Assembly: GCF_041431135.1 (NCBI RefSeq)
Contig: NZ_CP107799.1
Coordinates: 5,208,001 to 5,272,000 of the forward strand
Source: Streptomyces sp. NBC_00554
GTDB taxonomy: Bacteria; Actinomycetota; Actinomycetes; Streptomycetales; Streptomycetaceae
Direction of reading: 5' to 3'
Length of the DNA stretch: 64,000 bases
Shown piece after piece: positions 43,112 through 48,587 of the stretch. Positions within the stretch are counted from its first letter, which is position 1, and the number at the start of each line of letters is the position of its first letter. The notes under the pieces were generated by a model that was not told the DNA's origin, searched no databases, and was given only the letters and a program-made list of their open reading frames with translations. A program made the translations under genes and the position numbers.

Positions 43112-45445
43112 TCATTCCGGTTGGTCGGGAGGGGCTGAGGGGTGCTGAAGGTCAGGGGTTGTTGCTGGGTTTGCTGTATCTGGTTGCTCTACGGTCTCGG
43201 CGGCTTTGCGGGCGTGGGCGAGGTTGTTGCGGCTGGTCAGGGTGTTGGGGTGGGTGTCTCCGAGGACCTGTTTGCGTTGGATGAGGGTGGCCTCCAGCAG
43301 GGGGATGGCGCGGTCCAGGTCCCCCGCCGCGTAGTAGGCGTAGGCGAGGTTGTTGCGGCTGTGCAGGGTGTTGGGGTGGGTGTCGCCGAGGACCTGCTCG
43401 TACTGGGTGAGGGTGGCCTCGTACAGGGGGATGGCGCGGTCCAGGTCCCCCGCCGACTCGTAGGCGCTGGCGAGGCTGTTGCGGCTGTGCAGGGTGTTGG
43501 GGTGGGTGTCGCCGAGGACCTGCTCGTACTGGGTGAGGGTGGCCTCGTACAGGGGGATGGCGCGGTCCAGGTCCCCCGCCGCGTAGTAGGCGTAGGCGAG
43601 GTTGTTGCGGCTGTGCAGGGTGTTGGGGTGGGTGTCGCCGAGGACCTGCTCGTACTGGGTGAGGGTGGCCTCGTACAGGGGGATGGCGCGGTCCAGGTCC
43701 CCCGCCGACTCGTAGGCGCTGGCGAGGTTGTTGCGGCTTTGCAGGGTGTTGGGGTGGGTGTCACCGAGGACCTGCTCGAACTGGGCGACGGTGGCCTCCA
43801 GCAGGGGGACGGCGCGGTCCAGGTCCCCCGCCGCGTAGTAGGCGGCGGCGAGGTTGTTGCGGCTTTGCAGGGTGTCGGGGTGGGTGTCACCGAGGACCTG
43901 CACGTCCTGGGCGACGGTGGCCTCCAGCAGGGGGACGGCATGAGTAAGGTCCCCCGCCTCAGAGTAGGCGAGCGCGAGGTTGTTGCGGCTGGTCAGAGTG
44001 TGGGGGTGCGTGTCGCCGAGCACCTGCTCGTAGTGGACGAGGGCGGCCGTGCGCAGGGGGATGCTGTGGGCGTCGCGTCCCTCGCGATACAGATATTGCG
44101 CGGTGGCGTGATAGGCGTATGCGGTTTCGATTGATGCCGGGCTGTGGGGTGGTGTTGTTACGGCGAGGGCGATCACGTGGGGGAGGAGTCGTTCCCACTG
44201 TGGGGCGTTCGTGTCCTGGGTGGGGACGGCCTGCCGAATGAGGTGCTCGGTGTCTTGCCGGCCGGGTGGGTGTTCGTCCGGCCCGGCAGCGGGGCGGTGG
44301 CGCAGGACGGCCTGGACGAGGCGGTGGACGCTGACGCTCTGTCGGTCGGCGCTGAAAGAGATCATGTTGTAGGAATGCAGCACTCCCAGGGCTTCCCCGA
44401 GCGTGCGAGTGTCGGGACTCAGCGGGGCAAGCAGGGTGCGGGGGATGTCATCGGGTGCGAGCCAGGCCATCGCGTCGAGCAGGGTGACCGCCTGCGGATT
44501 GCGGTGTTCGACGGCGGTCAGCGTGTGGCGCCAGATGCGGGCGATGGTGCGCTCGGGATCGATACCGCCCACGGCGGTGTCCATGACCTGCCCCAGCAGG
44601 GTCCGGTAGTCGGCGAGAGAAGTTCCGGTCTCGAAGAGATAGGCGCCCGCCTGTTCCAGGGCCAGGGGCAGGTATCCGAGTTCGGCAGCGAGTGCGTCGG
44701 CCTCCTCGCGCTGGTGCGGGGAAGGCGTCTGCCCCTCTCCCAGGGCGAGGGTGCACAGCAGACTCACGGCGGCGTCGGCATCGAGCAGGCCCAGTGGCAT
44801 GGTGGGGGCGATCGCGTGCCAGCCGGTCCCGGTGCGGCTCGTGGCCAGATGGTGGCCGTCGGGGAGGGTGCCGAGGTAGTGGCGCAGGTCATCGGGGTGT
44901 TCGACGTTGTCGAAGACGAGCAGCCAGCCGGGGTGCCACTGCAGCCACAGGATGGCCCAGGCCGCCCGCTCCGGCACGTCCGCCGTGGGAGCCCACTGCG
45001 GGCACAGCCGCATAGCGAGGGAAGCCAGACCGGTGACGATCTGCTCGCTGGTGGCGGCGTTGAGCCACCACACCAGTGTGTAAGCCTGCCGGTGGAGGTG
45101 GGCGTAGTGCAGGGCGAGGGTGCTCTTGCCGATCCCACCCAGCCCGTGGATCGCCCGCATCGCGGACACCTGGGTAACCGCCGCCTCCCCCTCATCGGTC
45201 AGCAGCCGGCGCAGCCGGGCGAGTTCGTCCTCGCGCCCGACGAACACCCCGGACGCCGACCCGGGAAGATTCGCCGCTCCCGGCGGCGCATCCACATCCC
45301 TGGCCCAGCGCACCGCCTCGGCCGGCAGCATCACCACCCGCGCACCGTCACCGGTGATGGCCACCCCGACATCGCCGCCCACCCCAATGGACCCCGCACC
45401 AGACGCCTGAACACCACTGCCCCCGGGGGCAGAACGGTCGGTCAT
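43112..45445 (-). CDS. STAND NTPase: NB-ARC ATPase with C-terminal kinesin-light-chain-type TPRs
   Basis: 777 residues from ATG 45445, overlapping the upstream gene by ATGA. Residues 1-40 carry a Gly/Thr-rich tag (ASG 14-16, TGD 31-33). 'FVGREDELARLRRLL' (68-82) opens the NTPase; Walker A is GLGGIGKST (101-109), Walker B 'WLLVFDNVE', sensor 'HHLATSRTG', and 'GYLPLALEQAGAYL' is the NB-ARC GLPLAL box. A winged-helix stretch follows ('LAPDDIPRTLLAPLS'). From about 467 there are seven 42-residue TPR repeats (E-Q-V-L-G-D-T-H-P-x-T-L-x-S-R-N-N-L-A), some nearly identical in DNA. Such STAND proteins oligomerise when the repeat domain senses a trigger; bacterial relatives act in phage defence. No toxic effector domain is fused here, which makes the coupled small protein interesting. 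Confidence 0.92.
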   Translation of the reverse strand: MTDRSAPGGSGVQASGAGSIGVGGDVGVAITGDGARVVMLPAEAVRWARDVDAPPGAANLPGSASGVFVGREDELARLRRLLTDEGEAAVTQVSAMRAIHGLGGIGKSTLALHYAHLHRQAYTLVWWLNAATSEQIVTGLASLAMRLCPQWAPTADVPERAAWAILWLQWHPGWLLVFDNVEHPDDLRHYLGTLPDGHHLATSRTGTGWHAIAPTMPLGLLDADAAVSLLCTLALGEGQTPSPHQREEADALAAELGYLPLALEQAGAYLFETGTSLADYRTLLGQVMDTAVGGIDPERTIARIWRHTLTAVEHRNPQAVTLLDAMAWLAPDDIPRTLLAPLSPDTRTLGEALGVLHSYNMISFSADRQSVSVHRLVQAVLRHRPAAGPDEHPPGRQDTEHLIRQAVPTQDTNAPQWERLLPHVIALAVTTPPHSPASIETAYAYHATAQYLYREGRDAHSIPLRTAALVHYEQVLGDTHPHTLTSRNNLALAYSEAGDLTHAVPLLEATVAQDVQVLGDTHPDTLQSRNNLAAAYYAAGDLDRAVPLLEATVAQFEQVLGDTHPNTLQSRNNLASAYESAGDLDRAIPLYEATLTQYEQVLGDTHPNTLHSRNNLAYAYYAAGDLDRAIPLYEATLTQYEQVLGDTHPNTLHSRNSLASAYESAGDLDRAIPLYEATLTQYEQVLGDTHPNTLHSRNNLAYAYYAAGDLDRAIPLLEATLIQRKQVLGDTHPNTLTSRNNLAHARKAAETVEQPDTANPATTPDLQHPSAPPDQPE
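43210..44040. repeat. 126-bp coding repeat array (TPR units), with 252-bp higher-order period
   Basis: The segment TGTCGCCGAGGACCTG recurs every 126 bp (43255, 43381, 43507, 43633, 43759, 43885, 44011, with small changes). Alternate units carry GCGTAGTAGG or GACTCGTAGG, so the period of best identity is 252 bp over 43300-43750. Confidence 0.9.
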
Positions 45446-45861
45446 GGCCTGATCGTCGCGTTGTCACCGGTGACAGCGGTACGGATGGTCTTGGCGGCGA
45501 TGGACCGCTCACCGGACGCCGTCACATTCACCGTCTCCCCGCCGACGGGGAGGATCCGGGCCAGCTCGGCCAGCAACTCGGCGTCCTCCCGCAAGGCCCG
45601 CTTGATCTGCTGACGCAGCGCGGCCGCCGCATCCTCATCACCGGGCGCTTCGGCCGTGTCCTGAACCGCAGCCTCCAACTCCGCCCGGCCCTGCACATCA
45701 CGACGGCGCCACACCGCCTGCAGCATGCGCCGCCCCAGATTCGCGGTGGCATCCACGGCCGCGTCCTCGGCACGGGCGAAGACCGCCACCCCGTACGCAC
45801 CCACCGCAGTCGTCAGATACGGACCCGCCTGCCCGACCAACTGCACGATCTCAGCACTCAC
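45442..45861 (-). CDS. Small partner protein of the STAND NTPase
   Basis: 139 residues, overlapping the NTPase start by ATGA. Residues 1-50 are a mostly hydrophobic/amphipathic helix pair ('VQLVGQAGPYLTTAVGAYGV', 'AVDATANLGRRMLQAVWRR'). Residues 55-105 form an acidic helical region ('DEDAAAALRQQIKRALRED'). The C-terminal 30 residues carry V-x-V-T-A-S-G-x-x-S-I ... V-T-G-D-x-A-T-I, the same tag as the NTPase N-terminus. Nothing catalytic is visible. I infer an adaptor or effector that joins the NTPase through the shared tag; the N-terminal helices could act on the membrane. I know no named family. Confidence 0.85.
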   Translation of the reverse strand: MSAEIVQLVGQAGPYLTTAVGAYGVAVFARAEDAAVDATANLGRRMLQAVWRRRDVQGRAELEAAVQDTAEAPGDEDAAAALRQQIKRALREDAELLAELARILPVGGETVNVTASGERSIAAKTIRTAVTGDNATIRP

Positions 45862-46046
45862 TTGATCCCCCGACCACTGGCGGCCGACCTCTTGCCGCTC
45901 CGAAGGACCAGCGTAGAAACACCGCCCCCTTCACGAAACCAAAACGCCCGAACCGGGCGCGACGGTTCCCCAGGCTTGTCACAGACGACCGACTCGGTGG
46001 CTTGTCGCTGAAACCCAGTTCTGCGGTCGGTCCTGGCTGCGTCAGC

Positions 46047-46583
46047 ATGTACGGCAGTAATGATCCTGAGGCGTTGTGGAGGGACCTGGTGTACGCGGGA
46101 CGCGAGCCGAGACTGATCTTGCTGTGCGGACTTCCTGGTTCCGGGAAGACAACGCTGGCCAAGCGCATGGCGAGCGAGATTCCGGCGGTGCGTCTGTGCC
46201 CGGACGAATGGATGGCGGATCTCGGCATCGACTTGTTTGATGCGCAAACGCGCGACCTGCTGGAGAGGCGCTTTTCCCAGCATGCCCAGGAGCTGTTGAA
46301 GCTCGGACAGAGCGTGATCCTTGAGTTCGGCTTCTGGTCCCGCTCTGAGCGGGATGAGAAGCGACTCGGGGCGCGCGCACTCGGAGTTCCCGTCGAACTG
46401 CACTACCTTGCGGCGCCGATTGATGAACTGTGCCGCCGCCTCGATACCCGCAACGGGGAGGGCAAGCGGGGGACGGCCCCGATCACTCGCGAGATGCTTG
46501 AGGAGTACGCAGAGCTCTTCGAGGCCCCGAGCAGCGATGAACTCAGCCTGTTCGACGAACCGTCTCCGAGACGGAAGGGGTGA
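46047..46583 (+). CDS. P-loop kinase, AAA_33/zeta-like
   Basis: 178 residues from ATG 46047 (no clear ribosome-binding site; upstream in-frame starts exist). Walker A 'LILLCGLPGSGKTTLAKRMA', then 'RLCPDEWMADLGIDLFDAQT' with the acidic residue expected to bind substrate, 'SVILEFGFWSRSERDEKRLG' as second acidic strand, and 'LHYLAAPIDELCRRLDTRN' as the lid region. This is the ATP-dependent small-molecule kinase fold shared by zeta toxins, chloramphenicol phosphotransferase and polynucleotide kinase-like enzymes. No antitoxin gene is adjacent. It is divergent from the STAND operon with 185 bp between. Confidence 0.88.
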   Translation: MYGSNDPEALWRDLVYAGREPRLILLCGLPGSGKTTLAKRMASEIPAVRLCPDEWMADLGIDLFDAQTRDLLERRFSQHAQELLKLGQSVILEFGFWSRSERDEKRLGARALGVPVELHYLAAPIDELCRRLDTRNGEGKRGTAPITREMLEEYAELFEAPSSDELSLFDEPSPRRKG

Positions 46584-46758: not shown

Positions 46759-47073
46759 CTAGGGCTCGTTGCTGACTGACGTGGCCCAGTCGCGGAACAG
46801 GCGCAGTACTTCCCCGAGGTTGAGCGGGCCGCAGGACGCCTCAAAGACGTCGTCCGACACCTTCGCCATCACCCAGTCGGAGTCGCTGCGTTGTACGTCC
46901 GTTCTCAGGCAGGGACGACCGGACAGCGCCGTCTCCTCGAGATCGATGCGTACTGTCCAGCCTGGGTTGTCGAGCGTTTCGATCCGAACGCCCCATTCGT
47001 GTTCCCAGTCGCCGTCGCACTGGGCTTGGTACCACTGCTCCAGCCAACCGAGTTCTTCGCCGGTATCTGCCAT
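46759..47073 (-). CDS. Imm53-family immunity protein
   Basis: 104 residues from ATG 47073. 'LGWLEQWYQAQCDGDWEHEW', 'GVRIETLDNPGWTVRIDLEE' and 'FEASCGPLNLGEVLRLFRDW' match the Imm53 family of polymorphic-toxin immunity proteins closely: an N-terminal helix with W-x-x-x-Q-C-x-G-x-W-E, a beta-sheet with DNPGW and a C-terminal helix. Imm53 genes usually lie next to toxins of contact-dependent or Rhs/WXG systems. No such toxin or fragment is visible here, so it is an orphan. It is divergent from the Shedu-like gene. Confidence 0.9.
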   Translation of the reverse strand: MADTGEELGWLEQWYQAQCDGDWEHEWGVRIETLDNPGWTVRIDLEETALSGRPCLRTDVQRSDSDWVMAKVSDDVFEASCGPLNLGEVLRLFRDWATSVSNEP

Positions 47074-47262
47074 GACGGCAGATCGTACGACGTCGTGATC
47101 TGGCTCGTACGGGCGTATATGCGTCTGACCCCTCAGCTTGCGAAGCGACGGCGCTCGCGGTGCATCGCCGCTGTCACCGGCGTTGATTACATCTCTACTG
47201 ATACATGCTCTCGGGAGCGGCGTACGCCAGGGACCACGCGGGACTCCTGCCAAGCGTGGTTG

Positions 47263-48267
47263 TCAGTGCGCGGCCTTGCCGCCTATGCCGGAGGCGAACT
47301 GTTCCTCGACATTCTGGAGAACTACTACGACGACGAGGCCCGACAGCGCAGCGAGAGACACATGCGCAGGATGGCCGCCATGGGCGCTGACAGGGCGGTC
47401 GCCGCTCTGGACGTCCTGTGCCGCGACAAGCCCGACGCAAGCGCCGCTGACGCCCGTGACCTGTTCCGCGGCATAGCCCAGTCCGTCGACCACCTGGGCC
47501 TCGGGGACGGCGAGGGAGGGATCCGGCTCTCCACCAAGGAGGCGAGGCGACTCCAGGAATACGGGCACATGGAAATGGTTCTCCGCAACCTGCCTCGGCC
47601 CGCCTCCGCCGAGGCCGCACGGATGATGAGCGACATCCTGGCCGACGTCGATGCGGGCATGCTGGCCCAGTTGCTCGAACTGAGGGCCAGGCAGGTCGGC
47701 TTGGCTGCCCTGCGTACCGCGGTGGAGGCCCCGGACAGCTCCGAGAGCACCCTCCATGCCTGTCTGAAGAACCAGGAGTGGATCTTCGGCGGGGCCTACG
47801 TGGCCGAGCTGGCACGCCGGCAGTACACCCCGGACACCATCCTCGACATCCCTCTCCTGCGCGGCGACGGCTCGCTCCATTTGGTGGAACTCAAGCGCGC
47901 CAACATCAAGGACCTGGTCATACGACGCTCCGGCCACCTCATGCTGGGCGACCCGGCGCATCGAGCGGTCTCTCAGGCGCAGAACTACCTACGGGCCATG
48001 GACGAGAACCGCCCGAGCATCCTGGCCGAACACGGAGTCGACACCCGCCGGGCGTCGGCGACGGTCGTGATCGGACACCCGCGGTACGTGACCGGGGACG
48101 TCACGTCCCAGGAGATCGCGGAGACGCTGCGAACCTACAACACGCACCAGGCGCGCATAGAAGTGATCACGTACGAGACCCTGCTGGATTCGGCCTCCCG
48201 CATGCTGGCCCTGTCATCGGCACGGCAGGACGCAGACCCCGACCTGGCGGAGGAGCCCGCCGCATGA
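47263..48267 (+). CDS. Shedu-type (DUF4263) nuclease
   Basis: 334 residues from GTG 47263. I chose this start because third-position GC falls sharply before it and the reverse-strand Imm53 gene starts at 47073; ATG 47119 is an alternative. Residues 1-160 are helical without known domain. From 'LKNQEWIFGGAYVAELARR' the Shedu/DUF4263 nuclease core follows: D195 in 'DIPLLRGDG', E209-x-K211 in 'HLVELKRAN' (PD-(D/E)xK site), then 'HRAVSQAQNYLRAMDENRP' with the conserved Q, and 'ASATVVIGHP'. Shedu proteins are anti-phage nucleases with variable N-terminal sensors. It overlaps the next gene by ATGA. Confidence 0.85.
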   Translation, partial: SVRGLAAYAGGELFLDILENYYDDEARQRSERHMRRMAAMGADRAVAALDVLCRDKPDASAADARDLFRGIAQSVDHLGLGDGEGGIRLSTKEARRLQEYGHMEMVLRNLPRPASAEAARMMSDILADVDAGMLAQLLELRARQVGLAALRTAVEAPDSSESTLHACLKNQEWIFGGAYVAELARRQYTPDTILDIPLLRGDGSLHLVELKRANIKDLVIRRSGHLMLGDPAHRAVSQAQNYLRAMDENRPSILAEHGVDTRRASATVVIGHPRYVTGDVTSQEIAETLRTYNTHQARIEVITYETLLDSASRMLALSSARQDADPDLAEEPAA

Positions 48268-48587
48268 CCGACACACCACCCGCGATCGAACCGCTCCTGG
48301 CCCGCTTGTGCGGCGGTGAGATCACCGACAAGGACTACGTCGGATATTTCATGAACGAGCACGGAGAGGAACTCGTGTTCGCCCAGCGTCGGGGCGAGAA
48401 CACCGCCCGGCTCTGGCACAGCGACGCGGACTGGGAGATGTACCGCGTCGGCGACCACTCCATCCGGCTCGACGGCCCGATGGACGGGATGATCACCGTC
48501 GCCGACCTGATCATCAACCGCGAGGAGGCGACATGGCTGTCCTCCTGCCTCGCCGCCTCCCGCCACCTACGGCAGAGACGGACCTGA
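48264..48587 (+). CDS. Unknown 107-residue partner of the Shedu-type nuclease
   Basis: ATG 48264 overlaps the nuclease stop (ATGA), so the two are translationally coupled. The protein is acidic and compact: 'PLLARLCGGEITDKDYVGYF', 'EELVFAQRRGENTARLWHSD', 'WEMYRVGDHSIRLDGPMDGM', then a C-terminal helix 'IINREEATWLSSCLAAS'. The strand-rich middle and terminal helix resemble small immunity or inhibitor proteins, but I recognise no family. Known Shedu loci are usually single genes, so this is unusual. Candidate roles: inhibitor that keeps the nuclease off, or cofactor. Confidence 0.8.
   Translation: MTDTPPAIEPLLARLCGGEITDKDYVGYFMNEHGEELVFAQRRGENTARLWHSDADWEMYRVGDHSIRLDGPMDGMITVADLIINREEATWLSSCLAASRHLRQRRT

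Follow-up and report, generated by a model that had tools for sequence, protein, structure and literature searches.

Genes at the locus

The analysed window is a stretch of 64,000 nt from the chromosome of Streptomyces sp. NBC_00554, and all coordinates for this strain are positions within it. The genes and features considered here are the following:

43112-45445, minus strand: NLR-like TPR protein (profile match to NF040586)
45442-45861, minus strand: 139-aa protein, encoded upstream of and overlapping the NLR-like TPR gene (identified from the sequence)
46002-46583, plus strand: small P-loop kinase (Pfam AAA_33, weak similarity to zeta toxins), adjoining the Imm53 gene
46759-47074, minus strand: Imm53 immunity protein (PF15580, 117.7 bits)
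47263-48267, plus strand: SduA (Shedu) nuclease ORF, 5′-truncated (PF14082, PADLOC PDLC00401 and comparison with locus L067 of the same-species genome G307)
47270-47280, strand not given: approximate deletion junction (alignment to G307; 239 bp absent)
48264-48267, plus strand: ATGA overlap of the partner start codon and the nuclease stop codon (identified from the sequence)
48264-48587, plus strand: 107-aa partner protein (ORF, homologues and model), homologous to the C-terminal domain of DUF4365 fusions

The Imm53 gene, located just upstream of the truncated sduA, is an orphan with no recognised toxin gene adjoining it. Sequence similarity links the N-terminus of the NLR-like TPR protein (ASGAGSIGVGGDVGVAITGDGA) with the C-terminus of the overlapping 139-aa protein (ASGERSIAAKTIRTAVTGDNA), and the two genes look like a receptor-effector pair of the bacterial amyloid-signalling (BASS) type. 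Positions 43211-44063 comprise a 126-bp tandem repeat that corresponds to TPR units. It is present in 6.8 copies in strain NBC_00554 and in 5.6 copies in G307; the number of TPR repeats, therefore, varies within the species.

Identification of the nuclease

The ORF ends with a TGA codon at positions 48265-48267. The only start codons close to its 5′ end are TTG at 47260 and GTG at 47266; residues of this copy are numbered here from position 47263 (residue 1). The earlier note had assigned it to Shedu (DUF4263) on account of D195, E209-x-K211 and a later Q, an assignment to be given up if no DUF4263 hit was obtained. Profile searches revealed a match to the full SduA_C domain (PF14082) with an E value of 4e-15 and 56.8 bits (cut-off 27), and a match to the PADLOC SduA profile PDLC00401 with an E value of 5e-128. 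The catalytic residues D195, E209, K211 and Q240 are all present, together with Q238, and the columns equivalent to these four are invariant across 39 relatives. The ORF is a Shedu (SduA/DUF4263) nuclease, and its family assignment is secure. The first structural matches of a model of the full-length SduA from the same species were solved Shedu proteins, i.e. 8ps5 (E 5e-7), 8ps4, 8ti9 (TM 0.71, normalised by target length) and 8ti8.

The partner protein

The stop codon of the nuclease gene indeed overlaps the start codon of a second gene, as had been read from the sequence: the ATG at 48264 lies within ATGA and opens a frame of 107 codons. To call the encoded protein acidic is fair, given its 18 acidic and 12 basic residues. 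Its description as a member of no recognised family also holds, with no match obtained in Pfam, NCBIfam, PADLOC, PHROGs or PDB sequences. The AlphaFold model, made with 27 natural relatives (pLDDT 84.5, pTM 0.78), predicts seven strands between an N-terminal and a C-terminal helix. This secondary structure is compatible with the seven-stranded sandwich and closing C-terminal helix of a PH domain, and PH, PTB and FERM domains were the best structural matches, albeit weak ones, with Z values of at most 4.8 and a Foldseek E value of 0.1. Since these Z values are below 5, the predicted fold says little about function, and the term PH-like as applied to the model is a description and not a statement of family membership. 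Invariant positions of the partner include D24, V26, F39, G44, A48, W57, E88, W91 and C95; no catalytic motif was recognisable. The structural matches included no Imm-type fold, which leaves room for families that are not listed there, and a comparison with a viral fold library gave no significant match. The idea that the partner is a phage- or plasmid-borne anti-Shedu protein was rejected because no relative occurred in viral contigs or in phage or plasmid records.

Distribution and evolution of the gene pair

The survey of 393 Streptomyces genomes with profiles for SduA_C and for the partner detected the former in 67 and the latter in 34 genomes. The partner is located immediately 3′ of SduA in 15 of 17 close orthologues, the NBC_00554 copy included; in the other two, the partner has been lost (G318) or the 3′ end of SduA has been rearranged (G369). 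Elsewhere in the genus, G062 carries a deleted partner in divergent orientation beside SduA, and in G067 a weak partner remnant adjoins a broken SduA.

When 84,980 species genomes were searched with the partner alignment, 80 loci were obtained; the classification is ours, and some of the loci belong to the same genomes as those of the Streptomyces survey. SduA is encoded directly upstream and on the same strand in 42 of them, all from Streptomyces, Kitasatospora and Actinomadura, and a 4-nt overlap (ATGA or GTGA) joins the two genes in 39 of these 42. In two Lentzea loci, SduA and the partner are divergent, with start codons about 26 bp apart. Apart from the associations with other nucleases described below, the remaining loci are three orphans without an identified nuclease nearby (L190, L191, and L195) and two fragments or contig edges. 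The flanking genes differ across the three loci that were inspected, while the pair is retained. In four strains (L106, L185, L186, and L187), the partner is lost or broken although SduA looks intact, draft-assembly errors being possible in these cases. The partner, therefore, may not be strictly required.

In a broad phylum sample, the partner domain was found in 1 of 396 genomes; it is rare outside its pockets. No conserved coupled small ORF was recognised beside the partner-less SduA copies. The earlier note had proposed a two-gene variant of Shedu, to be doubted if the partner occurred in this strain only. The neighbourhood survey, with its 42 same-strand loci, reveals a real conserved partner in many genomes, and the proposal was right in that a DUF4263 nuclease is coupled to a conserved small protein. 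The inhibitor, cofactor or immunity function that the note also suggested for this protein is a putative one.

Phylogenetic analysis of 39 SduA proteins, with midpoint rooting, placed the partnered copies in a single clade with a support of 100/100 and 11 partner-less copies in a second one; the divergent and downstream arrangements appear as sister groups. One branch separates the DUF4365-fused from the stand-alone forms in the tree of 77 partner domains, which is based on a short alignment and leaves many forks without resolution. Median Ka/Ks values of 0.19 for the partner and 0.16 for the nuclease indicate purifying selection on both genes. The acidic C-terminal tail of SduA was considered as a docking site for the partner and dropped, since this tail is absent in the divergently arranged pairs.

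Association with other nucleases

About 30 of the 80 loci, all of them actinobacterial, encode a domain homologous to the partner as a C-terminal fusion to DUF4365, another PD-(D/E)XK nuclease. The D...QxK motif of DUF4365 is intact in the fusions where it was inspected. In short-Argonaute DUF4365-APAZ proteins, DUF4365 is the part that degrades DNA, and it is activated by target recognition (PMC10810196). The fusions resemble these proteins (TmuRE-Ago; PMC10810196) in that a DUF4365 PD-(D/E)XK domain is followed by a C-terminal accessory domain. They differ in the nature of the latter, which is homologous to the Shedu partner; an APAZ domain was not matched in any of the fusions tested. In one Phytohabitans locus (L188:4925-6303), a stand-alone partner is divergent from a DUF6615 protein, identified with an E value of 1e-5, just over the cut-off. 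DUF6615 is possibly a third nuclease family that uses the partner domain.

Two further arrangements were observed. In one Streptomyces genome, about 340 bp separate an SduA-partner pair from a DUF4365-partner fusion gene on the opposite strand (L077:6204-8267; also L174). At L223:5482-8214, the reading frame of a DUF4365-partner protein runs on through a DsbH/DUF255 thioredoxin-like protein, and the resulting open frame of 911 residues is either a true fusion or the product of a lost stop codon.

Truncation of the nuclease gene in strain NBC_00554

The earlier note had not recognised that the nuclease ORF is incomplete at its 5′ end. The profile PDLC00401 aligns to the NBC_00554 nuclease only from position 75 of its 404 positions. 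The genome of G307 is syntenic on both sides of the locus (L067), with 93-98% identity, and contains a complete sduA of 405 codons with a GTG start. Relative to G307, NBC_00554 lacks 239 bp that comprise the native GTG start codon and about 76 codons. The first four helices predicted for the N-terminal helical domain fall within the lost segment. A complete N-terminal regulatory domain ahead of the nuclease, a feature of Shedu type I, is absent from the NBC_00554 copy; the full-length relatives have the missing residues. The partner gene is intact in sequence, and its protein is identical to that of G307.

As a result of the 5′ deletion, the nuclease is probably inactive or no longer properly regulated. 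The NBC_00554 copy is likely to be a decaying remnant, which would leave the strain without a functional system irrespective of the role that the pair plays in other genomes. The existence of the full-length gene in a genome of the same species, the loss of four predicted helices and the retention of this region in all other intact SduA copies point in this direction, as does similar decay of sduA in L146 and L159, where the partner is kept and the nuclease is broken. On the other hand, the core frame is open, with a complete set of catalytic residues and no second lesion, and the GTG at 47266 or the TTG at 47260 could serve as a replacement, though non-native, start. An assembly error is also possible. 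Decay of the gene would concern this strain and is compatible with the two-gene Shedu variant as the best explanation of the pair.

Putative function of the partner

On balance, we lean towards a two-gene variant of Shedu in which the partner acts as a non-catalytic regulatory or targeting subunit. SduA would contribute an N-terminal helical domain and the PD-(D/E)XK nuclease core, and the 107-residue protein would be a small non-catalytic subunit whose synthesis is tied to that of SduA through stop-start coupling. The partner most likely binds SduA and controls the timing or the target of nuclease activity: it could either restrain SduA until a phage trigger appears or aid in target recognition. 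What the data show is the family of the nuclease, the coupling, the conservation of the pair, the fusion of the partner domain to a second nuclease family and the predicted fold; physical binding, the regulatory role and an anti-phage function of the pair are inferred.

Short gene overlaps are common in actinobacterial operons, and the small gene could, in principle, be a hitch-hiker functionally unlinked to SduA, the overlap reflecting compact gene packing only. We regard this as highly improbable, given that the association persists through rearrangement to the divergent orientation, spans three families and stays constant amid varying flanks in the three loci inspected, and that a second nuclease carries the partner domain as a fusion. 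An immunity protein or antitoxin, which would neutralise a self-toxic nuclease and whose constant production the overlap would guarantee, deserves more attention, yet we consider it unlikely. The tight stop-start coupling, the toxicity reported for heterologous Shedu expression (PMC12904381) and the occurrence of orphan partner copies, as is usual with immunity genes, agree with such a role. A permanent fusion to DUF4365 in about 30 loci is, however, ill-suited to a removable antitoxin, SduA is intact beside a broken partner in the four strains named above, and the partner is lost about as frequently as the nuclease. A regulatory or targeting subunit appears to fit better than a strict antitoxin because the domain is fused to DUF4365 with an intact active site and because strains exist with an intact SduA and a broken partner.

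A domain that occurs in trans to Shedu and in cis to DUF4365 would most simply be such a regulatory or targeting subunit. More tentatively, the 107-residue protein may represent a new small domain that different PD-(D/E)XK defence nucleases share as an exchangeable sensor or gate: Shedu and perhaps DUF6615 would receive it in trans, and DUF4365 would carry it in cis.

Relation to known Shedu systems

The nuclease shares with the characterised Shedu proteins, E. coli SduA (8ps4/8ps5) and B. cereus Shedu (8ti8/8ti9), the SduA_C domain, the PD-(D/E)XK residues and the predicted nuclease fold, as well as the N-terminal helical region, which is here found in the full-length relatives. The difference lies in the number of genes. 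Types I and II of Shedu are called single-protein systems in a review (PMC12409362), whereas here a second coupled gene is kept across a subclade; with this gene conserved in 42 loci, the description of Shedu as a single-gene system does not apply. The PADLOC Shedu models match the nuclease alone and not the partner. Judged by its gene content, the locus is to be regarded as a variant of Shedu rather than as standard Shedu.

Shedu nucleases possess diverse N-terminal regulatory domains, end-sensing and a relief of autoinhibition have been described for EcSduA, and further specificity determinants are suspected (PMC12904381). As far as the account in PMC12249575 goes, the short protein beside Sofic is an example of a small regulator encoded next to a toxic defence effector. 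The likeness to our pair is that of a small gene adjoining a potentially toxic defence protein; the effector itself, a Fic AMPylase, is unrelated.

Self/non-self control of Shedu is only partly explained, and the conserved partner, whose domain also sits on an unrelated nuclease family, qualifies directly as a candidate for the part of this control that is missing. Shedu constructs from actinobacteria cloned without the downstream gene may, accordingly, be incomplete. If the partner is an exchangeable sensor, one module for trigger recognition would be common to several nuclease systems.
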